Origin: Naematelia aurantialba
Lineage: Eukaryota > Basidiomycota > Tremellomycetes > Tremellales > Naemateliaceae
Length of the DNA stretch: 64,000 nucleotides
Assembly: GCA_021527695.1 (NCBI GenBank)
Contig: JAKFAO010000009.1
Coordinates: 620,001-684,000 of the forward strand
Direction of reading: 5' to 3'
The position numbers were made by a program, and so were the translations under genes. How positions within the stretch are numbered: the stretch's first letter is position 1; each line of letters opens with the position of its first letter. Shown here piece by piece: positions 27,696-46,700 of this stretch. Below the pieces are notes generated by a model that saw only the letters and a list, made by a program, of their open reading frames with translations, was not told the DNA's origin and ran no database searches.

Positions 27696-29065
27696 ATGTT
27701 AACAAGAAGCCGCCGCCGCGCCGCCTTGTCCGGAGATAGTCGAGTGAAGACCGAATCCAACACCCACCCTCCATCACCCTCTGTCAGCCAGGGGAAACGC
27801 AAGAAAGAAGAGACTGATGAGCCGTCTGACGACAGCGATAGTAGCGAGTATTGCTATTCTGTCGACACTGCCTGCAGCGAGCATCTCAGTGACGGGGACG
27901 ACATTGAGGACGACAACGAAGTCGAGTCGCTTATACGGCTTGAAGCCGACACGGTGAGTCTGCGCCACGACTAGGACAGTCTGGTTCTCATGCTGTTCTT
28001 GACCAGGAGCCTAATGACACTATTCATGAGCCGAAGGTTTGCATATGTGGTAAAATACCCCGGAGATTTGACCCAGAGGATTACACGTCATTCGGAAGGA
28101 TGAAAGAGACATTATCAGAAAGAATATTCATTCCAGGGGCGATGGCATCGGACAAGGTCATGCAAGAATTGGTCACCGCTCACACCGACGTTTCCGTCGT
28201 GTGGAAACAAAAGTCTCAAACGGTGAAGCTTCCGAGGGGGAGACGGTTTCACTGGACGTCCAATGGATGGGAAATCACCATATCTCGCAAGAGTACAGGT
28301 ACGGGGGTCAAGGCCCCATTGGGTCTGAAGTTGAGTGTTGAATACGACAAATACCTGCCAGTATTTTTCCACCGGGTGAGGTCCTTGGGTTTGGCCACTT
28401 CTCAAAGCGAACTTTGGCCACTATGTCGTAACGTTGGTTGCGAGACAATCGCGTGCAGGTCACATAGAACGTCAATTTGGTGCGGTCTTTGTCGTGGTGC
28501 ATTGGTCAGAATTACAGGGGCTGGATGTTCTGGGAAGACAACACGGGATGCAATGCCCAGGACTGGGAGAGTCTTTAGACCCGAACTCTGTCCAAATCAA
28601 AATCCTACCAGGGACAAGATTTTCATACCGCACAGAATGTTAAAGTCAGTTCCCAGCACTATCCCAGCTTTCACCATAACTCAAGAAGACAGGCATTTCA
28701 GCTATAAGCGTGGCTCAAGAGTCGTTAGCTGGACACAGAAGGGCTCATGGTTTCGTATCCGCGACGAGTACCGGAGTCAGTCCTCTTTTATAGCGGTGTC
28801 TTTGGTTCATGACCCTCTCGTCAGTGTGTACTGGCACAGCGTTACCAGGGTAGGGCTGATTCAACATGAGTCGAAGAATGATAGGCCACCAGACCTGGCT
28901 ATCACATGTGTTACCAAGGGTTGCAACTCTCTGGCGTGCAGGTCACTGACAACTCCGCATAAACCTCAACAGCGAGCTCTCTGCGGTGACTGCTACCTCA
29001 CGAATGACTCCAGTGCGAGGGCATGCCGAGCCAAGAGACCGAGACGCGACAGATCTACAGAGTGA
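27696..29065 (+). CDS. Two-module member of the novel Cys4-tail family
   Basis: Unrecognised 438-residue protein. Exons: 27696-27953, 28007-29065. A basic then acidic disordered N-terminus (RSRRRAA; KRKKEETDEPSDDSDSSE) precedes two copies of the module. Copy 1: RIFIPGAM ... FHWTSNGWEI ... PLCRNVGCETIACR ... WCGLCR. Copy 2: KIFIPHRML ... VSWTQKGSWFRI ... ITCVTKGCNSLACR ... LCGDCY. Both copies keep C-x4-C-x3-A-x-R followed by C-x2-C. The copies are strongly diverged in their middles, so the conserved positions probably matter for fold or metal binding. No enzymatic motif is visible. A role cannot be assigned. Confidence 0.65.
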
Positions 29066-29586
29066 GCTGATAGCTTATTCAACAGGGGATCAGAGTGTCT
29101 GTATTTACATGCATGCCAGAGTGCTATTCTTCAGCCTTCACCAAATGCGTATCTCTTTCGAAAAGATTGGCTGCCGAGTGCGCACGGACCTATTTGATAT
29201 TCTGTCGATGCTATCGGCTTCGAAGGGAAGGTCATGGTCTGCTCTTGTCCTTCTCACTCTGGCCACTTAGTCAGACGAACAAACTCTCTTTGGCTTCCTA
29301 CAAGTACCCATCGTTTGAGGTGGCCACGTAGAAGGCTAGTGTTTAGCTGCTTCTCTGCAGCCTGGCGATGGAGCAGAAGACGCTTTTCCAACTTTGTCGC
29401 TTGGATGGACAGAAGCAGTACTTCACTGGGGCCGGCGTTTTCTGCGCAAAGTCCAGTCCCTTGAGCGTTTTCGGTGTTTCGCTATCCAGAAGACTTCCTC
29501 GGTTGTATAAACAGTGAATTCGTCTTAGCGTGAGCTGGTTTAGAATTGCGTCTTGTGTTCAACACTCACAGTCACTGCGCAAAACA
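29066..29586 (+). other. Gap between module genes with possible degenerate module tail
   Basis: 521 bp. One frame around 29095-29235 reads ...CMPEC ... TYLIFCRCYRLRREG, which resembles the module tail (TYCGFCYLVRTRKG in the next gene). It lacks a start and the rest of the module. It may be a decayed copy; weak evidence. Confidence 0.3.
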
Positions 29587-31518
29587 ATGCCTCCACTCAA
29601 ACGCGAGACCATCGTGAAGGACGATCCGGATGGCTCTGAGATGGACAGCGGAAGCGCGTCCGAGGATGCGGTCTCGGTTAGTGGATCAAACCGGGGAGAA
29701 TGGGCCGGCAAATACGAGCAAACCAGTGACGCCGAGAGCAGTGAGGATGAGAGCATGGATGACGACGCGGCCGCCAGTGAGGAAGAGGTGCTCAAATTGC
29801 TGCAAGATGCAAGTTCTCACACCGTACTGGACTATAGCCGCCACTCTCCAAATCATGATGACCATCTAACAGGCTTGGCAGACGGCGACCTTAATCCTCC
29901 ACACGCAAGGTACAGGCTGGAAGCATATCAGCAGACCAAACGTGTGAAAAGGATTTTCATCCCAGGGGCCATGTGGGGTCCGAACGTATCGCTGGATGAG
30001 TCTATCCAAGTCGAACCATGTCGTAATCGGAAAGCGACCTTACATACTGGAACGCGCACCGAGATTCAGTGGCAAGTTTCTGGCCGGTGGATCCAATCAA
30101 CAAGCAGAAGAAGTCTGAGGGTCGAACTGGATCCAGCCACTTCGAAAGTCACAAAAGTGACTCTCACAACATCTCCTGGGGGTGCACCAACCTGTTTCAT
30201 CCCTAAATGCTTGACTTTAGCCGAGAGGCCGGCCAAGTTTGGCTCTGGGGTTCATTGTCAAGCTTGTTGGGACACCCAACGTACAGTCAGCGCCGCACGA
30301 CAACCTCAGGGGAGCACCTTCTTCCGCCACCTGCACGACTCCTCTCAGCCTGGTTCTGTCTGGAATACAGGACAGGATATCTTTGTGCCAGCTCAAATGC
30401 TGGCAAATCAACCTCTTGTACTGGAAGGGGTCCGCATGATGTCACACGAGGACAACAGAACGTTTTTCCCATACGGCAAAAAGTCCCCTTGGTGCTGGAA
30501 GCAGTCCGGTACATGGTACAGAGTTACCCAACCCAGCGGAGGAGGCATCAGCCTGTCTGGAAGGCTAGCAGTCAAGATGAGACGAGACCCGTCGATCTAC
30601 CCGGCGTTTCACTATGTCGAGGAATTGTCGCGCTCGACCGAGACTACCCCCCCGGAAGAGATTGCCTTGTTGTGCATAGAGAAGGGTTGCAATACCATAG
30701 CAATCAGACAAGTACAGCATAGACGAGTCAGTACGTACTGCGGTTTCTGCTACCTGGTACGAACACGCAAAGGCCACCAGTCGAGAAGACAGTTCACAGA
30801 TTCCCAGATGATTGTTTCCAGCGACAGTGTCACTCCCAGATCGTACCACACCAAGCGCGTCTCACGTCAGTTCTCAGAAGCAAGCCCCACAAACAGTGTG
30901 AGTCGTACTCGGTACTGGTACAGACGATGCCGTCCCCCAGAGGAGTGTGGTAGTTCGCAAAGATACCCTAAAGTCAGGCTGACTTCATCTCAGCATACAG
31001 GTTCACACGTTCGCATCGCCTCTGCTTACTTGAAGAGCGTGTACAAGTTCGACGGCTCGATATGCCAACAAAATTGGAACTGCGGAGAAGGTCTCTTCAT
31101 TCCCGACGCCCTTGTCAATGCAAAGACGATAATCGACACACGCGGTCTCAAGGTCCTCGGTAAGGAAACAAGGGTATCGTATACTGAGCGCCATGGAGTT
31201 CGTTGGGAATTTCCAGTTGAGGGCACGCTATATAGTGTGAAGAACTCTGCGAGCACGGCAAGTCATGCTTGTAAAGCTGGGAGAATTGCCATCACTTGGC
31301 AGCAAGATACGACTGTCAAACCCGGAAGATGCATGATTCGCCGGTTGAGTCGTTCCGATGCGAACACAGACGCGAAAGAGATCGCTCTTGAATGCACGGT
31401 CGACGACTGCAGGACGGTGGCGTCCCGAATGAGGCGCGGCGGCTACATGAAACTGTACAAAGCATACTGCGAGCCTTGCTATCAGACACGCGCCCAGGCC
31501 GCAGAGCCCCCTAGCTAG
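29587..31518 (+). CDS. Three-module member of the novel Cys4-tail family
   Basis: Unrecognised 643-residue protein in a single uninterrupted frame from the ATG at 29587. Residues 1-115 are acidic and Ser-rich. Three module copies follow: about 122-230 (RIFIPGAM; WQVSGRWIQ; C203-x4-C208, C224-x2-C227-W), about 264-390 (DIFVPAQML; WCWKQSGTWYRV; C363-x4-C368, C385-x2-C388-Y) and about 503-640 (LFIPDALV; VRWEFPVEGTLYSV; ECTVDDCRTVASR; YCEPCY). The invariants across copies are the aromatic-aliphatic FxP opening, the W...G.W/Y core and the four-Cys tail with a following Ala and Arg. It is the most complete member of the cluster. Function unknown; a structural zinc site is inferred. Confidence 0.7.
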   Translation: MPPLKRETIVKDDPDGSEMDSGSASEDAVSVSGSNRGEWAGKYEQTSDAESSEDESMDDDAAASEEEVLKLLQDASSHTVLDYSRHSPNHDDHLTGLADGDLNPPHARYRLEAYQQTKRVKRIFIPGAMWGPNVSLDESIQVEPCRNRKATLHTGTRTEIQWQVSGRWIQSTSRRSLRVELDPATSKVTKVTLTTSPGGAPTCFIPKCLTLAERPAKFGSGVHCQACWDTQRTVSAARQPQGSTFFRHLHDSSQPGSVWNTGQDIFVPAQMLANQPLVLEGVRMMSHEDNRTFFPYGKKSPWCWKQSGTWYRVTQPSGGGISLSGRLAVKMRRDPSIYPAFHYVEELSRSTETTPPEEIALLCIEKGCNTIAIRQVQHRRVSTYCGFCYLVRTRKGHQSRRQFTDSQMIVSSDSVTPRSYHTKRVSRQFSEASPTNSVSRTRYWYRRCRPPEECGSSQRYPKVRLTSSQHTGSHVRIASAYLKSVYKFDGSICQQNWNCGEGLFIPDALVNAKTIIDTRGLKVLGKETRVSYTERHGVRWEFPVEGTLYSVKNSASTASHACKAGRIAITWQQDTTVKPGRCMIRRLSRSDANTDAKEIALECTVDDCRTVASRMRRGGYMKLYKAYCEPCYQTRAQAAEPPS

Positions 31519-33999: not shown

Positions 34000-34008
34000 C
34001 GTCCAAGC
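34000..34008 (+). repeat. 9 bp target-site duplication, left copy
   Basis: CGTCCAAGC directly abuts the left terminal inverted repeat. The identical 9-mer abuts the right end at 43638-43646. Confidence 0.9.
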
Positions 34009-34141
34009 GCAAGTATATTTTAACCCTCCTTTAAAATAAATCATCACCGACCAGGACCCACCTTGTGTATTTTTGCCAGTACTTTTGCATTTTTTTGACC
34101 GACCACTTGGCATATTCCCTCACTTTCATGAGATCTCGATT
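34009..34141 (+). repeat. Left terminal inverted repeat of the MULE
   Basis: Begins GCAAGTATATTTTAACCC and ends ...CATGAGATCTCGATT. Inverted match to 43504-43637, with differences confined to the outermost roughly 15 bases (TATA versus AATTA). Confidence 0.95.
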
Positions 34142-34577
34142 CGAGCCTGCCTTAAGCATGCAGCGCAGCTGAATCTGTGTGTGCTTGATGACCTTCTTGG
34201 CCTTCAAGATGGAAGGTTCTTCGATTCAAGTTCAGAGCTAGATTACCATCAAAGTGGTCAACCCCCTAGATCTGTCTCGAATCCAGGTCTCGAATCTAGC
34301 CTAAGTCTCCTATGCACTGAATGACAGATAAAGCCGCATAATCGAGACCATTCGGAAGCGATTCTGCTAGTGTAGCATCAATCAAAGGATTCTGACCCTG
34401 TAGAACATCACTAAACCGTACAATATCACTCAACGCCGGCAGGCAGACAAACAAAGATTCCCCATCACACGCAAACACTCTGTGTACTGATTTTGACGAA
34501 CTTTTCGAGTACACCACATCCAGAGAGCTCGGCACAAGACTTTCAGGCATTATCAGCAACTTACATATCAATTCAGG
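34142..34577. other. Subterminal region of the MULE, left side
   Basis: 436 bp between the left TIR and the accessory gene, holding that gene's presumed promoter. It contains several GATTCGA / CTCGAATC motifs (for example about 34138, 34215, 34275 and 34290). No coding sequence recognised. Confidence 0.5.
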
Positions 34578-37139
34578 ATGGCTACCGCTGCTGAGATTCA
34601 CGACGCAAAGGCTATCGGGCCAAATGCCGAAGAATGGGTGCGCTCGATCCGTGAAGACCCTGTTTGGAAGAGCCCGGCAGCCAGACGTCGGTTCGAACAG
34701 AGATTCGGTGGTCCCATCCAAGACTGGCAATGCTCTGCAGATCGGTACTTTCCACCGTCGGCAGCGAGGCTAGGTCTCCATCGAATCGACTTGGAAGACG
34801 GGGGTTTGACCACCATCCCGAAAACTGCTCACCGGGGCGTGAATTGTGAGGGATCTGGAAAAAAGGATCATATTTCGAACTGTCATCCAGCGTTTATTTA
34901 TGAGTAAGTCGGGATCTACACGCCCATCTTGAATCGAGCTGACGAAAGCAGACATCCTTCTTTGATTTGTCCAAATTCCGATTCTATTCACAGCAAGACT
35001 TTTGTTACAAAGTGGCAGCTCAATGGACGAACAAATGTCTGCCTTCATTGCTATGTGAAGCCGGAAACGAGTTGCGCTTTAAAGAATGTCCAACTACCTT
35101 ACACTGGGCGATGGCATATTCTGCCTACACTTGAAAGCGAGAGGGATAAGGTCTGGGATATGGTCTTGAATCGAGCAGTCAAGAAGGATGTGATTGCAAC
35201 TCCTCGGCAGACACATGGGATTGGCTCAAAATCTCGGGCGACATCATCCTCTATCGCCAGCAAAAGATTGCGAGGGTCCATTTCACCCCCAAGGCAATTC
35301 GACCGTCTCGGGAAAAGAAAGTCTTCGGTTCGAGATGTATCTTCATCTCCAACCCCACATCAGAAGAGGAAACTGCCCATGTATCCGGTGATCGATTTGG
35401 CGGAGGGTTCGAGCGAGGATCAGGAGGGCGAGAGGGAGCTGTCTGAGGAGGATCAGCTGGCAGATGACGATGAGATTGTGCCAGTTGCAAGTCCTCAAGC
35501 CGGAAGCGGGAGCCGAATTCATTCTTCGATTCGATTCAAAGAGACTAAAGCTCCAGCAAGGCCAGCGGCAGCTCGGATCTTGAAGCAACCTGGTACATCA
35601 ACTGCCTTCGAATCGACACGGCACACCTCGAATCCGACACATGTGACTCCTGCTACCTCTCAAGCATCGCCAACGGCCTGGGCATCCATAGGGCGAACAC
35701 GAATATCAGCGCCAGCACCAGCACCAGCACCAGCACCAGCACCAGCACCGATTGTAACTCGTACCAAAGTACATGCATCGTCGAGAGATGAACCGGTGGC
35801 TACAGTACTGGCAGGAGACCAAGCAGAAGCAGCAGCGGCACCAATGGATTCGACCGTTCTCACGTTCTCTCGGCAGAGGCGCCAGATCACGCTACAGCTG
35901 CCACTGTATCATACGGCATCAGAAATTCTTTTCGACGAACGGGCGCCTCATAATCCCAACGACCTGTCTTATATTCGGCGGGAGAAACCTCTTTTCGAAG
36001 TTCCAGCACACATGCTCCTTCCTATCAACTTGCCGGCAGTCGATTCGGGCTCTTCAGATTTAATTCTGAATGATGCATCCATTGCTTCGATTCAAGACAG
36101 GATTTCGAATAGTCTGAATCAGGTTCCTCCGGAGTACGCAGACATGTCAAATGAGTTGATTCGGGTGGGTACCAAGCTCGGACAACTCAGTACTTGGCAT
36201 GCGGCAAACAACAAAGCTGTGGCAAGAGCAGTCGGTGCTTTCGAGAACGAGCTGCTTGAGGCGAAAGATGCAATTGAGTCTCATCGAATAGCAGCAGAAA
36301 ACTCAGAGGAAATGATGAAGAATCTCGACCGACGCCTCATGAATCTGCTCGATGAGCTCGAGGGCAAGAACAACGAGCTCGAAACCATGAAGCATCAGCT
36401 CCAATCCATAGACTCTGATGCACGAACCGAGGCATACCAAGTCAGAGGGGAGCTGAGGACACTCGAGGAGCGTTTTCGAACGGCTGTGAAGGATAGGGAG
36501 GCCATCCAATCTACGAACAGCAGAATACTTCGAGAGGTCGAGGAGATGAGGGCAGAGCGAGACAATGCAATTCGCAGCCGGGACGAGTCCATTCGACGTC
36601 ATGCAGAAGCGGATTCGGCAGCGACAGAGAAGGACCAGCAGCTCAAACAGTCTCAGAAAGCGGAAGCCGACTCGCTGCTCAAGCAACAGCAGCTCGAAGA
36701 TTCACTGAAAGAGCTCCATGGTCTGAAAACTGAAAACGAACGCCTTGTGGAGCGCATGAAAGTGATGGAGGCCCAGATCAAGGCGGTAAAGTCAGCACAT
36801 GTCATGACAAACAACGCTCTCGATGAGGCCGAGTCAGCAAGAGCAGAAGCTACTTTGAGAGGTGAAAAGCTGGCATCTCAGCTGTCAGAATCCGAAGAGA
36901 AGCGAGCTCAGGCCGAGAAACAGCTAGAGGCTGTCCAAGCAGAGAAGGTGCAGGGGGCTAAGGAGACAGACGAGCTTCGAATCGAGGTAGAGCGCCTTCA
37001 GAGGGAACTTGAGGAGCTGCGAAAACAGCCTACCGAGACTCAAGATGAGCCACTGACTCCTCTCCCAGGACCTACTGTCCCAGGACCTGCTGCGTCGTCC
37101 TCGGAGACTGTTTTGAGGAGATCTACCAGAAAACATTAG
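34578..37139 (+). CDS. MULE accessory protein: Cys motif N-terminus plus long coiled coil
   Basis: 837-residue protein. Exons: 34578-34903, 34952-37139. The N-terminal roughly 145 residues contain DRYFPPSAARL (about 55-65) and a Cys-rich tail with C115 and C139-x2-C142-Y (VCLHCYVK), echoing the module of the 25.8-32 kb gene cluster. A disordered middle follows, with a (PA)n run from a ccagca microsatellite (about 35705-35750). Residues about 440-810 form a long heptad-rich coiled coil (EELEGKNNELETMKHQL; ERLQRELEELRK). It is carried by the transposon and converges on the transposase gene, with 203 bp between stops. A role in element binding, oligomerisation or targeting is possible but not shown. 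No known family recognised. Confidence 0.7.
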
Positions 37140-37342
37140 GAAGCCCGTTGTAGCGTAAATGTATCTTGAAATATCATCCTCGAAAGTGCATATTGTCTCT
37201 TCGAATCACTTTTCAGTGTCGAGGTGTCAATGACAGCCCTCAAAAACGTAACTTAGACGTGGTTTGGCATAGATTCGAGGAGAAGATATTGGATTCGAGC
37301 TCGTCTCACATTGTAGCTAATTTTTATCCAGGTGCATGAGGC

Positions 37343-40300
37343 TCAAGCAGATGCAGTAGTCTTCTCTATATCTACCGCGTACTGTCTAACGACTCTACTT
37401 ATCTGTGATGATCCCCAGACCGAATTCGAGACCGGTTGCAAGACCCAGCTGGACATAAAGAGCTGAATCAAAGACTGCCTCAAGCTCTCCGCGCGCCGTG
37501 TGTTGAAAGTTCTCCCTGACATACCAAGCGCATCTCTGGTGGGCATGATATTTTGGCTGAGCAGGAGAGCCGACGCCACTGTGAGGGGTCCACAACTGTG
37601 TCCATCTTCCTGTTGAGGCCAATCCAGGAGTTCCATCATTTTCTGATCCGGTTAGCAAGGCCAATTCGCCACTCACTGGGGAATTCGGAGCAAAAACCCA
37701 ATCCTCCAAAAGTGCTCTGTCGACTGCATTCTGCTTGATCTCATACTCGAATCTTGTCCTGAAGATGGCAGGGATGCTCTGATGGAACATTCATTAGCAA
37801 TTAATCCTTTCTGGAGCATCTCTCACCTGCTCCAATTTTTTCGAGTCACATTTGCCACTCATGCTGTCATAACGCACGACAATCTTTTCTGGGCCGAAGA
37901 CAGCCATGAGAGACCAATGAGCATTTTCGTTTACAAATGCAAGCGTTGTGCGCTGTAGCCAAGCCGAAGACTTGCCAAACAACCATTCGGAGGGGATTGA
38001 CCCTCCTGCAGAAACATACAAAGACGGGTTTTCCGGATGGTCCTTCACACACCATCTTCCCAGGCTGGTTTCTCTCCGAGCAGTTGTCAAATCTTCGAAA
38101 GCTTCGCCAATGGGGTGTCCTAATGCAGCACGTCTCCTGACCAGACTCATGCCGACTGTCACAAGGGCCTCCATCCAGTCGTCAGCCCACCAATCAGTCA
38201 CACTGAAACCCGCTTGAAGTGTTTTTAATGGGAGACCCATTCTTTGACCAAAGATGACGACAAGATTGTACTGGCCTTCGTAGTCATCGTATCTGAGCAG
38301 GTGTTCGCGAGATGCTTCAAGGTGTGCCAGAATTTTGTGAAGTGATGCTTGATTGTATGCCCTTGGGGATTCGAGTGCTCGAGTGGTGACCATGGGGACA
38401 ATCGACTTTGCCTGCGAAAATTTGATAGATTTGAATCGAAGTATTACATTTGGCTCAAGCAGCTCTGGGACGACTGAATCGTCCAGTACATGTTTAGGTT
38501 CGGATGGTCGACTCCTTGCTTTGGATGGTGGCTCTGCAATTTTAGAGTCGAATTGTGAGGAAACTTTCGATTCGAATCGATGATTGACTGCTTTATGTCT
38601 CTTCCCAATGTCATGTTGAGCTGATTGCCTGTCTTGAAGATCTTTCCAGCTATCAGCTTTGACATTCTAAGACAGGTCGGCTTACTTCTCTTTCTGCCAA
38701 TTGGCACAACTGGTTCTTTACCCAGCGACACGTCCGAAATGTCCAAACGCACGTACCAAAAGGCCACTGGCATTCGGCCGGCCTCAAATGCATTCGAAAG
38801 CAGATGGATTCGATGAACTTGCTCGTCATCAATCTCAAACCATGCCTCGTCCTTGGGAAGGAAAACGGTGTAATGCGGAGGATGCTTGTGGTTGACTTGC
38901 TGGCATATAATCCCGCCAATCCGATACTGAACAACTTGCCTGAGCAAAATATCAGTCCTTACAGGTATGTCGATGTTCGAATCGATCAGAAGGAACTCTT
39001 CGAATGAGTGGAGCTGACTACTGTTCCAGGTGACTTGGAGGAATAGAATTGAAGGATTAGATTCGAAGTCCACAGTATGCTTGAATTCTCCCGTTTTATG
39101 ACAGGTAGCGCATGTTCGCTGCCGGCTGAATGTGAGGAAATCTGAGAGAAGTTCTCTCAGAGATGCTGTATGACCAAAGGCCTTCTTCTTCAAAAACTCT
39201 GAGCCCTGGAGTTGTATCGAATATCGTTCTTTGGCTTCCTGGCGAATTGAGTTGCAGTTGGGACATCTATCGACAGTGATCGCTCGCAAGTTGAAGAAGC
39301 TTCGAGCTAAGTCACCATGGTCTCCCCTGCTGACCAGAACCATCATTCTCTCAAAGAAGATGCCTGGACTGTCACAGCCATCTAAGTGGAGCTCATCTAC
39401 ATCGTGGTCAGCACATGGTCGAAAGGCTAGGAGTTAACAAGTACCTTCCAAGGCTAGTCTTAAATTCGGAATGTCAATGACTCCCGTTCCACTTGATCTC
39501 GCATGAAAGGCTCGCCATGTATGTAATACACGCGAATTCCGCCCACAAGACATGGATTCGATTGAGCTGAGACCAGCCGAGACAAGTGATTCTCTGCTCA
39601 ATAGGTGAAAGACTGTTAGAATATGACTGATGTTATCGTGATTTCGAGCACCCAATGGTCGTTTCGGTGCTGATTGCTCCTGGATTTTGATGGCAAGAGA
39701 GCTCCGCTGACCTTTTCTACCCAATTGCAGGGGGACAATTTTTCGGGGTCGACCAGTTGGTGGCGAGTGGATCTTCACAGCTGGAGAGGTTTCGATTTCT
39801 ATATGTTTGGCCCAGAGATCTTCTCCAGTCTCTAGGTGTAGCGAACTCCTGTTGCCAGTATGGCGTCTAGAGATGGGGGATGTCGCATGTCGAAAGTGCT
39901 CATCTTCGGAGCTTGCCTTGTCTATTCCCATGAATCTGCTTGAAACCGCTGCCACATCCCCATCCGGCTGATCCCCAAGTTTCCAATCGACAACAGGGCT
40001 CTTCCAAAACTCAGTGACATCTCCAATATCATCTCGAATGTTGACAGTGTCGTCATTATAGTTGTGGACATGTGGGGAGGCCTCTTCAAATCGATTCGAG
40101 TCTCGAAATTGTCCGCGAAGTATCTTGCCAGAAATGTAAGCAGTTTCTTCTTCGTATGAATTGACGTTGCCGGCAATTCGGTAGACAACCATGGCCCAGA
40201 GGTGAGGACAGCGTTTTCCAGTTTGCTGGAACTGCACACATGTGCAAGTTTCTCGTCCATTCGATTCGAGCGTGCCGCAAAATTGTGTGACTGCTGAATC

Positions 40301-43240
40301 ACCTGCAATTGCCCGATTAATGACTGGATCCACTCGAAAGGCCATCTGGAGAGCGCCCAACTGGTACGCAAGCCCAATATGTGTGGTGGGATCGATGAGA
40401 TCTTGTTGCCACATTTTTAGGCCTGTGGTGATGGCATTCACCAAATTCGGATCGGGTCGCGCTTCTTTATGCTCGAAAAGCTCATAATAAGGAAAGTATT
40501 CCATCAGAATAATTTGAATCAAGCGATCCATGCTTTCGAATCGTCAGCCTGCAGAATATGACCAGAATATCGTCTCTACTTACCGTTTGTTGACGCGACA
40601 AGACAAAAATGTCCGGTCAAATACTCGGAACGCCACTTCCGCATAATTGTTAGTCGACCAGGGGCCATCCCTGTTGTAGTGTGGTGGAATACCATAATCG
40701 ACACAATATGGGCGCCAGCTGTCGTCGAACCAATACTTCGAGAGGTAAGTGCCAATTTTTTGCCAAGCCGCTCCATCGTCCCTCGCGATCGCATTCACAT
40801 CCGCCCCCAAAGCCTTGAAATATTTAGGCCACTCGGCCTCTATTGGGCATCGTTGAGCCTTTCGAAGCGCTTTCATGTACATGTTGAGTTGAGTTGCGCC
40901 TTGTCTGTCTCGAGGGAAAGCCGTTTGCCCGTTGGATTTGCAGGCCTGCATGAAATGAAATTGGCATACTCGAATCGGTAAACCTGGAAAGACGGTCCGT
41001 ATTGCATTGCGCTCTGCGGCGCTGCGATCGATCATCATAAATGCAGGGCAAAAGCCTTCACCGTCGTCTCCGGCTACAGCCAGTGCTCGAAGATATAGTA
41101 ATTCTTGTGTTTCCTTGTCCGTGCCGTCGTCTCGATTCGAATATTCGTCAACTAACTTCGAAGCCAGCTGATTTACGCTCTTCAGGATCGTTTGCAGGAA
41201 TAAAGTATATATTTGTTCAGTAGCAGTATTTGATACCATTACAGCGACTGCACCATGAGCTCTATTGGTGCTCAGGCAAGAGGAATTAAACCTACTAGGA
41301 ATCATGCGGTGGAATTCATTGATAGTGCTTAGAATGGTCATGGGACATCGAAAAGCATTCTTGTTGCGCCAGGAGGAGTCCATATACATCCCCCGTTCCA
41401 CTGCATGAAGCAGAGCATTTTTTAGACCAGATTTTGGTCCAATGATGCATTCAAATCGGTCTCCAGGCTTGAATTCAGAGTTCAAATCTGACAGACACGG
41501 ATAATGGACACTGTTTGAGTTCACTGTATCAGAATCATTTCATATGAAGACACAAAAGCAAAGACGTACTGCAAGAATGCCTCGGGAGAACGTTTAGATA
41601 AGATCTCAATCGCTGCCAGAGGATCACGATCCAGGCGTTTCTTCCGTGAGGCAGCTAAAATCGCCGACCGGAAATCTTTGTCTTTTGGCTGTCTCCATGG
41701 ACACTGCAATCGAATGAAACGAGCATATGGATGTTCCTTAGCTATCTCCTCCCATTCTACGCAGGAATCAAATCAGTTTCGAAGTGGTGATGGGAGCTCG
41801 AATCCATTCTGAACTCACGCCTCTTCAATTGCCCGGGTGTCGAAGAGAAAACAGATGCCATGTCGCACAGAATCCTGCGCACAAATGGGGAAACATCGAG
41901 GAGCTCCATGTCCGGACAATGCTGATGGCCTGACGTTTCGAAGATCGTGCATGTCTTTGTGAAGGTTTGAGCAATGCTGACCTGAAGCTAGACCCAATCA
42001 GTTCCGCAGCACACTGCCAAGAATGAATATGCTTACAATCAGCTTGGCTGTACATGAAAACCTGTCTCGAATTGGTCCTGCGTTTGCTGCCATGGATCCC
42101 TCGTCTGAATTCGATGAGCAGTCTTTTCGAAGTAGATCCGCCGCTAGTTGTACTTCCTCCTCAAAGGTTTCCGGAATATGAAGCATGGCTCGACTTCGAA
42201 TTTGCTCGCATGCCCCAGCACAACTATACACGGACCTCCATAAGATCCGCTCTGATCTAGATGCTGCTTCACTTCCTTCAAAATGGAAATTGCAGCGTCG
42301 AGCTCGGAGATCCGCCGGTCGGGGACCAGGTGGATCAAGAAATTCGATTCGAACATCTGGTGCGGCTGTGTGATGATCGAATGTCCATTGTTGTGGCTGT
42401 AGAGCATCAGAAGGTCTGCCACAATCTTTAACAACATACCATTTTATCAATGAATGCCGGAAATTCATCCTGTGGTATCTCTGTCTGTTCGAAAGATAGT
42501 GATGGATGCTGCGAGAGAGGTCTTGCATGAAGAAAGCCTTTTGTGATCCGAACTGAGGGAAGACGTGCAGGGTGGATAGTGCGCCTCTCAATGACAGAAA
42601 TGGCACTCTTTGGCAATTTCTTACGGCTGCATACCGAAGTTTCGATGATATTTCGCTCTCTTCTGGCTGCAATTCGATGATGCGATGGAGCGGAATGATT
42701 ATTGCTACCTGACCGTGTATTTACTGAGCTTGGGGAGTGAGCACTTCGAGGTAGAGGTGTCAGGCGACGTGGAGAGTGCCTCAAGCTGCCGTAGTCGGGC
42801 TCGGGGACAATTGCTTGTTCGATTTCAGATACTGAAGGGTCCCGAAACCTGGAACTGGAATAGGTCGGCTGATTTCGAATTTGAGTGAAAGGCAGTGAGA
42901 TTTCCGAAGCTGTTTTGGCGTGTTGTCCTACGGTAAATGACGCTGTTGAGGGGGCAATGACCGACGATTCGGAGAATCGATTGGCACTTTCATGAACGCT
43001 GTAGGTCGACACCGAAGAGTCTGATTCAGAAACTGGATTCGGGATAGCATCAAGTGCCCTTAATTCAGCCTGTTCTGGCTCTGCTAAGTCATGAAGCACG
43101 ACAGAAGTTGAAGCCACAGGTGGGGAAAGCACTTGGAAGTGTTTGCGTGGTCGTCCTCGCCGCTTTCGAGGAGTGACAGCCTTGAGCAGGGTCCCTCTTG
43201 GCAAAGAGCCAATTATCTTCGAATGGTCTTTGATGGCCAT
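37343..43240 (-). CDS. MULE transposase fused to SWIM, USP-like and ULP1-like protease domains
   Basis: One 1,788-residue protein. Minus-strand exons: 43240-42440, 42356-42232, 42193-42037, 41981-41819, 41756-41570, 41510-40584, 40532-39445, 39396-38686, 38632-37827, 37778-37677, 37642-37343. All phases agree. Domains in order: AT-hook KRRGRPRKH (about 26-34); disordered region to about 265; MULE-type DDE transposase with D522 (YMDSSW), D639 (MMIDRSAAE), the C-x2-H of VCQFHFMQA (660-663) and E769 (NNYAEV); SWIM finger C883-x-C885-x9-C895-x-H897; a USP-like domain with Cys box SCGRNS (C1116), CPNC/CATC zinc cysteines and His box HYTVFLPKDEAWFEIDD (H1324, D1339); a ULP1-like domain with H1625 (NAHWSLM), D1642 (RYDSMSG), Q1700 and C1706 (PQQEDGHSCG). 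Fusion of ULP domains to MULEs is known in plants (Kaonashi). The added USP-like domain is unusual. Confidence 0.88.
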
Positions 43241-43503
43241 GATGCGATACAGTTAGAAGGAGTGTGATGTGGTGAGCAGCTGGACAAGACCCAGAGTCAG
43301 ATACCTGCAGCACCATGACATCAAGTAGTAACTGCGTATAAAATAGAATATGGATGTTGAGAGAAAGGACCTAAGATCAGTGTCTGTTTGAATCGTGAGA
43401 AAAAACAGATTCGGGCGCGTGCAGCAATGGTATCCAACTCGAATTGATATGCTACGTCTTTGAACGATAGATTCGTGCTTTATACATCGGATTCGAGGGA
43501 TGA

Positions 43504-43637
43504 AATCGAGATCTCATGAAAGTGAGGGAATATGCCAAGTGGTCGGTCAAAAAAATGCAAAAGTACTGGCAAAAATACACAAGGTGGGTCCTGGTCGGTG
43601 ATGATTTATTTTAAAGGAGGGTTAAAATAATTCTTGC
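43504..43637 (-). repeat. Right terminal inverted repeat of the MULE
   Basis: Inverted copy of 34009-34141, ending ...GGGTTAAAATAATTCTTGC. The rest of the 3' subterminal region, 43241-43503, is non-coding and presumably holds the transposase promoter. Confidence 0.95.
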
Positions 43638-43646
43638 CGTCCAAGC
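43638..43646 (+). repeat. 9 bp target-site duplication, right copy
   Basis: CGTCCAAGC, identical to 34000-34008. Confidence 0.9.
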
Positions 43647-43789
43647 CTCACCTTCGACGAATTGCCACGTGGTCCGGGCGCGAGCGGCGAACGAGCCATA
43701 CCATGTCGTTCTGATTCTTTCCTCTCGCAACTCTCATCTCATCCACCACCAGATACTGCACTTCTCCCTCTGATCGAGGAACCAGGGAG

Positions 43790-46700
43790 ATGGGTGCTGA
43801 AGCACAGCGCGCTCCGCTTCGACGGGGCCCAGGGATCTGTGCGATGCGCGGGAGCTGCGGTCGAGCTAGCATCTTCGGTGCAGAGCTCCCGTGTCCTGAT
43901 GACGGTGATGCGAGCGAAGTGAGTGATCTTCTGGTATTTTGGTCATATCGCTCATCAGTACAGGTGGATGACTCTCTTAGGGAGCTCATGTCAAATATCT
44001 GTGGTCCGGCGTACGAGCTTCCAACACATGTGTGTTGTACTGCCGACCAACTTTCGACCCTGGGCGATCGCATGCAGCAGGCTGCACCGCTGATCGCTTC
44101 TTGTCCGGCTTGCCTCAACAATTTCCGCCTCTTTTACTGCGACTTCACATGCTCTCCAGATCAATCGACCTTTCTCACCATATCCGAGCAGCAGGAGACG
44201 ACGACGGGAGAGCAAGCAGTGAAGACGGCAGAATATGCCGTCAGCGATGAGTTCAAAGAGGGGTTTTATGGGAGCTGCAAGGACGTGCAGTTTGGTGCTA
44301 CGAATGGTTTTGCCATGGACCTTATTGGAGGAGGGGCAAAGAACGCGTCGGCCTTTCTCAAATATATGGGAGACGAGCGACCAGGCCTGGGATCGCCCTT
44401 TCAAATCAACTTCCCCCATGATCCCGAATCGAGCTACTACAGGACCCCATTGGGATGTGCAGACGCCGGCCTCAACTCTCGATGCGCTTGTGCCGACTGT
44501 CCGGAGATATGCCCCTCCCTTCCCTACATCGCCCCGCCCACCTCGGAGAGATGTCACGTCGGCCCTGTGTCCTGCCTGACCTTCTCCCTCCTCATCATAT
44601 ACTCGGTTGCGATATTGATGGGGATCCTCTTTTACTCGTGGAAGCAAGCTCTACGGCATCGACAGAGAAGATACGAACGGGTTGCGCTTTTAGATCCGCC
44701 ACACTCCCCCACCGAGCGGTCAAATGGGCTCGATGGCCTGGTTGGGCGAGGTGACGATGCCGAGTCTGGCCCCTCGGGGTCAATACATTTCCGTCTTGGC
44801 CGCGGCGCGAGTCTGCTCGACCCGATGGAGCACCTGCAGCCCAAGCAAAACAAAATCAATGCGATTCTCCGCCGGTTCTTCTATCGCCTTGGGTTGACCT
44901 GCGCTCGACGACCAATGGAAACTCTAACCTTGGCTGCTGTGATCATTGCGGCATTGAATATCGGCTGGAAAGACTTCAAAGTGGAAACGGATCCTGTGCG
45001 TTTATGGGTTGCCCCTAATAGCGAATCGGCAATACAGAAGCACTTCTTTGACGACAACTTCGGGCCATTCTACCGAGCCCAACAAGTCTTCATCACTAGC
45101 ACGGATGGCTCGAGTCCGTTGCAACATGACACCCTCGACTGGTGGCTTCGCCTCGAGAGCGAGATCGGCCAGCTGCAGTCACCTTCTGGTTACAGATTAG
45201 ACGATGTTTGTTTTGCTCCTGCAGGACGAGGAACACCCTGTGTAGTGCAATCCATCTCTGCATGGCTTGGAGAAGACCTGGCAGACTGGGGCGAGGATTG
45301 GCGCGAGCGGATATCCGATTGCGCCGCCCGACCCGGAGAATGTCTGCCTGCCTTTGGCCAGCCCATTGATCCGAAACTCATATTAGGCGGTGCCGAGGAG
45401 GGCTACCTGGAAGCCAAAGCTCTAGTAATCACCTGGGTGGTCGACAATTTCAATGACGACAGAGTACTGAAGGCTGAAGATTGGGAGCGTACCCTCAAGG
45501 ATTATCTATCTGGTATTTCACGACCGGGTTTGAAGATCAGCTATTCTACGGGTGTCTCTCTCGAGGAAGAGCTCAACAAGTCAACCAACACGGATGTCAA
45601 GATAGTGGTGCTCTCATACATCGTCATGTTCCTCTACGTATCTCTCACCCTTGGTGGCGGTCTGCCACCCTCCGTCATTCGCTCGGTGCTGCATCGACTT
45701 TGGCATGGTGCCCTTCATCTTGCTCACCTCCTCCGTATCACAAAATCGCCGCCCGAACCCTTGTCCGGCTCGACTAGCATATCCGTGATACCCACACTGC
45801 TGTCGGTCAGCTCGAAATTCTCCCTTGGGCTATTTGGAATTGTAATTGTCCTCGTCGCTGTCTCATCGTCGGTCGGACTCTTCTCACTTCTCGGCGTACG
45901 GGTCACGCTCATCATCGCCGAAGTAATCCCATTCCTGGTGCTTGCAGTAGGAGTGGACAACGTTTTCATCCTTGTGCACGAACTGGACAGGCAAAACTCG
46001 CTTCACTCTACGGGTGAATCAGATCCCCCAGTCACTGGTGATGGCGACGACGAGAACGAGCAGGTTCAGCCGTCACTCCCCGCTGAAGAACGGGTTGCCC
46101 GGGCGGTCGCAAGAATGGGGCCTTCAATAGCTTTGAGCAGCATAACGGAAACAGTAGCATTTGCTTTGGGCGCTCTGGTGCCAATGCCAGCGGTGCGGAA
46201 CTTCGCTATCTACGCAGCAGGCAGCGTCTTCCTGGGAGCGGTTATGCAAGTGACGGTGTTTGTGTCAGCAATGTCGCTAGATCTCAAGCGGGCAGAGGTA
46301 CGCTCTACCGATAAACTGTGCTAACTCATAGGCGATGAGGATTGACTGCGTGCCTTGTGTCCAGCTGCGACCACCAATAGGACTATACGAAGGCACCCCT
46401 CCAAGTGAAGGGGTCGTAGCGAAATTTGTCAGGCGAGTGTACGCACCGGTCTTGATCCAGCAGGAGGTCAAGCAGCTGGTTTTGGTCTTCTTTGGCGGTT
46501 TATTCTTGACAGCCGTGATCGGCATCCAGCACATAAAACTTGGCTTAGGTGGGTTACTTTGAATGTGACAAGACTGACCCCAGATCAACGTCTCGCCCTG
46601 CCTGCCAATTCTTATCTGATCTCATACTTCGATGCCCAAGAACAGTATTTTGAAGTCGGCCCACCTGTTTACTTTGTCGCAGAGCATACCGATCTCCCGG

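Follow-up and report, generated by a model that had tools for sequence, protein, structure and literature searches.

ULP and deubiquitinase domains recur across unrelated transposons. Within the MULE/Mutator superfamily, the Kaonashi KI-MULEs, KIU and Arabidopsis VANC-ULP elements bear ULP and are implicated in escape from silencing (PMC13317346, PMC2528002; papers given by PMC number are cited here for parts of their text). The DDE transposase of Ginger1 has Ulp1 or OTU at its C-terminus (PMC2836005), and CACTA-ULP elements encode Tnp2 + ULP1 proteins (PMC2528002). Here we analysed a 64,000-nucleotide stretch of the genome of Naematelia aurantialba (contig JAKFAO010000009.1, positions 620,001 to 684,000, forward strand), which is referred to as the window. 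It contains a complete MULE, 9,629 bp in size, at 34009–43637, with two convergent genes inside; one of them encodes a long transposase that carries both a USP-derived and a ULP1 domain. The genome searched comprises 21 Mb in 15 contigs, of which C15 includes the window; its size and its short introns would suit a fungus.

From the N- to the C-terminus, the transposase very probably consists of a basic N-terminus, a DDE core of RNase-H-like fold, a SWIM finger, a USP-derived domain and a C-terminal ULP1 protease, all in one polypeptide. The gene (37343–43240, minus strand) was modelled with 11 exons and 1,769 residues; its splice donors and acceptors were picked on an alignment of the window with family R. 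Family R and a second sister family, S, were found by protein searches of the same genome with the window exons. R has four copies (C9, C14 and two on C12), and its DDE exon is 79–80% identical to that of the window. S has two copies (C10 and C12), which are mutually 99.97% identical over 3,660 bp; compared to the window, S is 44% identical over DDE-exon residues 90–314, 54% over residues 7–80, 26% in the USP and 31% in the ULP. The order DDE, SWIM, USP-like and ULP1, which the initial annotation of this DNA had proposed for the window gene, is common to the window family, R and S (3/3). Only in S are the catalytic residues of both proteases complete.

The DDE catalytic region spans 40637–41380 on the minus strand, with D548 at 41380–41378, D653 at 41029–41027 and E783 at 40639–40637. 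Across 20 aligned rows, the window and 19 database relatives, D653 and E783 do not vary, and D548 is present in all nine rows that extend to its position; this alignment supports the triad reported previously, here in present numbering. The Pfam MULE profile (PF10551) matches the spliced window protein with 27.6 bits, the value of the cut-off itself, and the R protein with 30.1 bits, over the cut-off. The fold predicted from the DDE exon and its 19 relatives has a predicted local distance difference test (pLDDT) score of 75.7; its best fold match in the PDB is the ISCth4 transposase, with a probability of 1.00 and an E-value of 2.9e-3. The SWIM-type finger, CxCx9CxH, is located at C897–H911 (40202–40246, minus strand), as had been noted before. 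The motif is kept in all three families, and it scores 11.9–12.9 bits against Pfam SWIM (PF04434), below the cut-off of 19.6.

The 19 relatives, retrieved with the MULE exon alone, are 215–419 residues in length; being near the exon in size, they are uninformative on the tail. One database open reading frame (ORF), P0001 (326 residues), shares 92% identity with the DDE exon of the window, which indicates that a close relative of the element exists elsewhere. A further MULE-domain locus of the same genome (G000:C3:997642-997821, 45.6 bits) was absent from the results of the three exon searches and thus probably belongs to another lineage. A scan of viral contigs with the DDE exon gave no match.

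The USP-derived domain (residue 1072 to ~1383; 38738–39721, minus strand) contains one internal intron. In the window its Cys box is degenerate: N1098 is retained, and Ser1103 occupies the position of the catalytic Cys. The textbook Cys box of family S, PIGAINTGIDCYVLSLLQVL, aligns without a gap to PLGARNHDNISHILTVFHLL of the window. The pairwise alignment of S and the window is ungapped for ~90 residues, from RK.Q.SSLA to P.LR..L, and the MAFFT alignment has a four-residue gap that lies well downstream of the Cys box. In both alignments, the catalytic-Cys column is occupied by Ser in the window (Ser1103) as well as in R; Cys is found only in S. His1338, Asp1353 and the zinc cysteines 1208, 1211, 1259 and 1262 are retained in the window and all kept in R. 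Of the USP set listed in the initial annotation, the His, the Asp and the zinc cysteines are supported; the Cys box, placed there at C1116 (C1130 in present numbering), is not, as the aligned position is Ser1103.

Pfam UCH_1 matches the spliced window protein with 22.6 bits (cut-off 22.2), rising to 26.8 by construct, and R with 27.1–30.7 bits by construct, over the cut-off. The USP of S reaches 61.4 bits with UCH (E 1.4e-16), covering positions 1–241 of the 254-position profile. It matches 27 distinct PDB sequences (E up to 1) with USP46 first; 25 of these are named ubiquitin carboxyl-terminal hydrolases and two are TssM. A six-frame, genome-wide UCH scan (E 1e-3) yielded 30 matches, including both S copies; the remaining ones are presumably host genes. 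Judged from its sequence, the window USP is best read as a pseudo-USP, in which Ser1103 would probably leave the domain inactive. In the window family, editing of marks would be left to the ULP half; in S, both halves could take part. At 38856, in the His-box region of the USP, the window copy has a unique Pro1344 codon; all four other copies carry the alternative base, and residue 1344 is Arg in the three copies that were modelled.

The ULP1/C48 protease domain starts at about residue 1450 (37343–38387, minus strand). It contains H1606, D1623, Q1681 and C1687, in agreement with the complete ULP1 set described earlier, and the His, Asp, Gln and Cys of the catalytic set are complete in three of three families. 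With the spliced proteins, Peptidase_C48 scores 25.0 bits for the window and 25.6 bits for R (cut-off 20.7); the single ULP exon of the window alone scores 13. Profile searches with the spliced window protein agree with the initial annotation for MULE, UCH_1 and C48, all at or over their cut-offs; UCH and SWIM stay below theirs. Matches of the R ULP in the PDB are weak (an Ulp1-like SUMO protease, E 0.022; SENP2, E 0.15), and a phmmer search of the PDB with the window ULP gave one match, with an E-value of 1.5. The N-terminal piece of the S ULP, which does not include the Q–C part, has no match in Pfam, and the NCBIfam search gave no match.

The ratio of nonsynonymous to synonymous substitution rates (dN/dS) between the window and R was calculated by the Nei-Gojobori method. 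The ratios, which are rough because dS is 1.3–2.1 and near saturation, are 0.21 for the pre-DDE part, 0.06 for the DDE, 0.08 for the SWIM, 0.16 for the USP and 0.14 for the ULP. Less constrained are the N-terminus (0.44), the SWIM-USP linker (0.38) and the USP-ULP linker (0.28). The USP is constrained despite the apparent loss of its nucleophile, which suggests a binding or structural role.

Taken together, the sequence itself shows a MULE that looks autonomous and has moved recently, the domain order in the three families, constraint on both tail domains and a complete ULP set. For the reading as a whole, in which the pseudo-USP and ULP tail of the long transposase counters tags, we lean slightly in favour. 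An anti-SUMO/ubiquitin role of the tail is plausible in itself, at somewhat below even chances. In such a mechanism, the tail domains would act in cis with the transposase; the ULP would free the transposase, or chromatin and repair factors at the TIRs (terminal inverted repeats) and the target, of SUMO or a related tag. The ancestral USP would have taken ubiquitin off SUMO-marked proteins, along the route of the SUMO-targeted ubiquitin ligases, and in the window and R families the USP would now have a ubiquitin-binding or structural role without catalysis. As the net result, the transpososome would be shielded from tag-dependent degradation or silencing. The suggestion of the initial annotation, that host factors have their ubiquitin or SUMO marks edited by the element, likewise stands as an inference. 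More tentatively, a DDE transposase may once have reversed both steps of SUMO-targeted ubiquitylation in one chain, as deSUMOylase and deubiquitinase (sets complete in S), with the deubiquitinase then selected as a non-catalytic ubiquitin-binding module in the two higher-copy families (five copies of the window family, four of R).

Ulp1 and OTU domains in transposons have been suggested to work through ubiquitin or SUMO control of repair (PMC2836005), and Helitron deubiquitinases might spare proteins required for transposition from degradation (PMC9741609). Arabidopsis VANC genes with Ulp1 participate in anti-silencing, and the role of Ulp1 is called unknown there (PMC13317346). In our analysis, this literature would support the general idea of a tail role and nothing more specific.

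The tail proteases may instead mature the transposase by self-cleavage between its modules, like a polyprotein, rather than act on host tags. Viral maturation proteases are among the ULP1-type folds, and a very long polypeptide with linkers of low constraint would suit cleavage sites. However, no strongly conserved motif can be recognized by eye in the linkers of the window and R, and self-cleavage would not require a pseudo-USP; we consider it unlikely.

There is a small chance, too, that both protease domains of the window element are active enzymes, the USP using C1130 (39545–39547, minus strand) as its nucleophile. The C-x-x-N-S at 1130–1134 resembles many USP Cys boxes, such as CYVNS in USP46, and the stretch SIE..SCGRNSR.L around C1130 is kept in R. 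However, C1130 is located outside the Cys box, 27 residues downstream of the position aligned to the catalytic Cys of S and USP46; its alignment to that Cys would require ~27 extra residues before it and ~27 fewer after it. S carries Thr in the C1130 column, and N1098, five residues ahead of Ser1103, fits the conserved Asn of the Cys box. When the S box was slid along the window without gaps, the score was 35 at Ser1103 and -14 at C1130, and 35 was reached by none of 2000 shuffles. The USP46 box scored 18 and -17 at the two positions (24/2000 shuffles), and the S box slid along R favoured the same Ser, with a score of 22 (12/2000 shuffles). As these scores favour Ser1103, C1130 was rejected as the USP nucleophile. 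Of the earlier claim of one polypeptide with two such domains, the USP-derived and ULP1 domains in a single chain are upheld by the introns, the Pfam matches and the three families; two working proteases in this element are not, owing to Ser1103.

Whether the pseudo-USP and the ULP belong to one chain depends on the gene model. Introns 1–5 are located at 42439-42397, 42036-41982, 41818-41757, 41569-41511 and 41295-41260, and introns 6–10 at 40583-40533, 39444-39397, 38685-38534, 37826-37779 and 37676-37643, all on the minus strand. Transfer of the junctions to R gives ten introns of identical phases (0,0,1,2,1,2,1,1,0,0) and a protein of 1,764 residues, which agrees with the single open frame over 11 exons (43240–37343, minus strand) given in the initial annotation. 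The exon number is the same, and the length is 1,769 residues here against 1,788 there; the gap fits a reading of the 36-nt intron 5 as coding (spacing of the two Asp residues 117 versus 105), together with other linker introns. No stop interrupts the frame that the SWIM finger shares with the USP Cys box in the window and in S, so the fusion of the transposase to the USP needs no splicing. The joining of the USP to the ULP depends on predicted intron 8 (38685–38534), and its acceptor is the least certain of all ten.

It is improbable that the USP and the ULP come from separate genes or transcripts rather than from one transposase. The USP frame meets a stop at 38444, an ATG starts the ULP frame at 38393, and the switch between the two frames depends on a predicted intron. 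In R, however, a GT-AG intron (GTGAGC...TTGCAG, 62 nt) is found at the same place and in the same phase 1, and a promoter would hardly fit into the ~177 nt between the USP and ULP matches. The two frames overlap in S, at ~502.5–502.7 kb. The SWIM finger is also in frame with the USP Cys box. Gene pieces are frequently captured by MULEs (PMC13317346, PMC2528002), but that both domains are functionless host fragments carried along, as in Pack-MULEs, is very improbable, because both are in frame with the transposase and constrained (dN/dS ~0.15), and their order is kept in three families although the window and S are only 44–54% identical in the DDE exon.

Several results weigh against a tag-countering tail on a single transposase chain. 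The exon structure is a prediction from the sequence, and the USP-ULP link is formed by intron 8, the least certain intron. A search with the full-length protein found no relative at E 1e-3 among the 7,991 best candidates scored; this search works by word matches, and the collection behind it apparently stores these genes as single exons. The USP domain, used in an alignment search at the same threshold, had no relative among 6,121 candidates. These searches found no relative of the fusion or of the USP outside this genome, so a single genome supplies all the evidence for the architecture. UCH scores 20.3 bits on the full window protein, below the cut-off of 23.9 (up to 24.0 by construct), and 14.0–17.4 bits by construct on R, with 14.0 for the full protein, again below. 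The USP46 box slid along R alone is not significant (485/2000 shuffles), and phmmer of the window USP against the PDB gave no match at E 1. None of the 30 UCH-scan matches is located in a window- or R-family copy, and none of the three matches of a six-frame C48 scan of the genome is located in these elements; in both cases the domain is intron-split there. The single-sequence AlphaFold model of the USP domain has a pLDDT of 31 and was not used. The fold match of the DDE exon, at 2.9e-3, falls short of E 1e-3, and the near-saturated dS also counts on this side.

The ends of the element were located by copy comparison. Its TIRs and target-site duplication, the other copies, the sister families and the second gene all go beyond the initial annotation. 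The left TIR (34009–34141, plus strand) begins with GCAAG, and the right TIR (43504–43637, minus strand) ends with CTTGC. A perfectly complementary core of 126 bp (100%) is formed by 34016–34141 and 43504–43629; comparison with other copies shifts the termini outward to 34009 and 43637. The flanking 9-bp target-site duplication (TSD) is CGTCCAAGC at 34000–34008, with the right copy at 43638–43646. At least four further copies of the window family are present, on C11, C2, C1 and C14; copy numbers from the genome searches are lower bounds. They differ by 1–9 substitutions apiece and are 99.6–99.98% identical over aligned pieces of 4–10 kb; three of the four show a repeat-length difference, and two (C1 and C14) bear inserts of 417–418 bp. 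Perfect 9-bp TSDs, each of different sequence, flank all five window-family copies. The transposase frame is open in four of the five, and in the C14 copy a 418-bp insert lies within the ULP exon. The 417–418 bp insert, with ends GTCATGACGGAGACG...GAGCATCGTGACA, interrupts the right repeat in C1 and the ULP exon in C14; it is probably a small non-autonomous transposon. In R, the repeats are 125–126 bp in length and 96.8% identical, and perfect 9-bp duplications, all different, are found in four of four copies. Two R copies match R9 at 99.99% over 9,782 bp; the fourth (R12b) bears inserts.

The second gene (34578–37139, plus strand) is convergent to the transposase gene and encodes 837–838 residues; exon 1 spans 34578–34903, and exon 2 starts from ~34949 or 34952. 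Its product has a Cys/His-containing N-terminus and a C-terminal part that, by eye, resembles a coiled coil; no Pfam match above the cut-off was found for it. The gene is kept in family R, with 81% identity over 109 residues and 39% over 818 residues. In the adjoining region, 43638–46324, an NPC1-like ORF lies on the plus strand (Pfam NPC1_N, 7.6e-73), and the element is inserted upstream of it, ~150 bp from its first ATG. At 27944–31518 on the plus strand, two adjacent ORFs share motifs such as RIFIPGAM and paired Cys, and Pfam gave no match at E 1e-5 for the longer one; the pair is a possible tandem, lineage-specific gene family. Scans of the window for tRNA and Rfam families gave no matches.

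MuDR has a convergent pair of genes, mudrA and mudrB. Like the MULE/Mutator superfamily, the window element has 9-bp TSDs, long TIRs, a MULE-type DDE domain and a convergent second gene, together with a SWIM-type motif that scores below the Pfam cut-off; TSDs and long TIRs are found in both the window and R, and the MULE domain is at or over the cut-off. For Mutyl, an antisense MutB is listed in a table of a MULE survey (PMC6446971). The extra motifs in the survey table include OTU, SET, FAR1 and PMD (PMC6446971), whereas here USP-derived and ULP1 domains are found at the C-terminus. The main text of the survey has no mention of ulp, peptidase, protease, sumo or ubiquitin (PMC6446971), and PMC5735166 has none of Ulp, SUMO or peptidase. 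Different from the window element, which has TIRs and a ULP fused in frame to the transposase, Kaonashi elements are non-TIR, their ULP is in a separate gene, and no USP is mentioned in the sections cited (PMC2528002, PMC13317346). The comparison with Kaonashi made in the initial annotation is thus a loose one: ULP does occur in MULEs, but that of KI-MULEs is reverse to mudrA and outside the transposase (PMC2528002).

Ginger1 and CACTA belong to other transposase superfamilies, and Table 1 of the Ginger paper gives OTU or Ulp1 per element, never both (PMC2836005). In Trichomonas vaginalis, XP_001314237.1 is mentioned as a transposase fused to a USP (Peptidase C19); different from our protein, it is of the transposase_11 family, and a ULP is not mentioned in the part cited (PMC2836005). 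Helitrons with VTD + OTU have two deubiquitinase classes in a single transposon protein (121 cases), but they are rolling-circle elements with a Rep-helicase, without DDE, and their proteases are of other families (PMC9741609). Among the matches listed from open-licence PMC literature, no DDE transposase with USP + ULP was found. Within those matches, the novelty claimed earlier for two proteases in one transposase would hold for USP + ULP on a DDE transposase; it does not extend to two deubiquitinase classes in one transposon protein, for which the Helitrons are published. ULP in MULEs, ULP or OTU in Ginger1, the C19-transposase_11 fusion and VTD + OTU Helitrons are already in print. Beside these systems, the elements of one genome, near-identical and recently moved, here combine a conserved ULP with either an active-looking or a dead-looking version of the same USP domain. 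This offers a clean comparison of a catalytic with a binding-only USP while the ULP is constant, and would open to test the idea that hosts generally defend themselves through SUMO/ubiquitin control of transposases.

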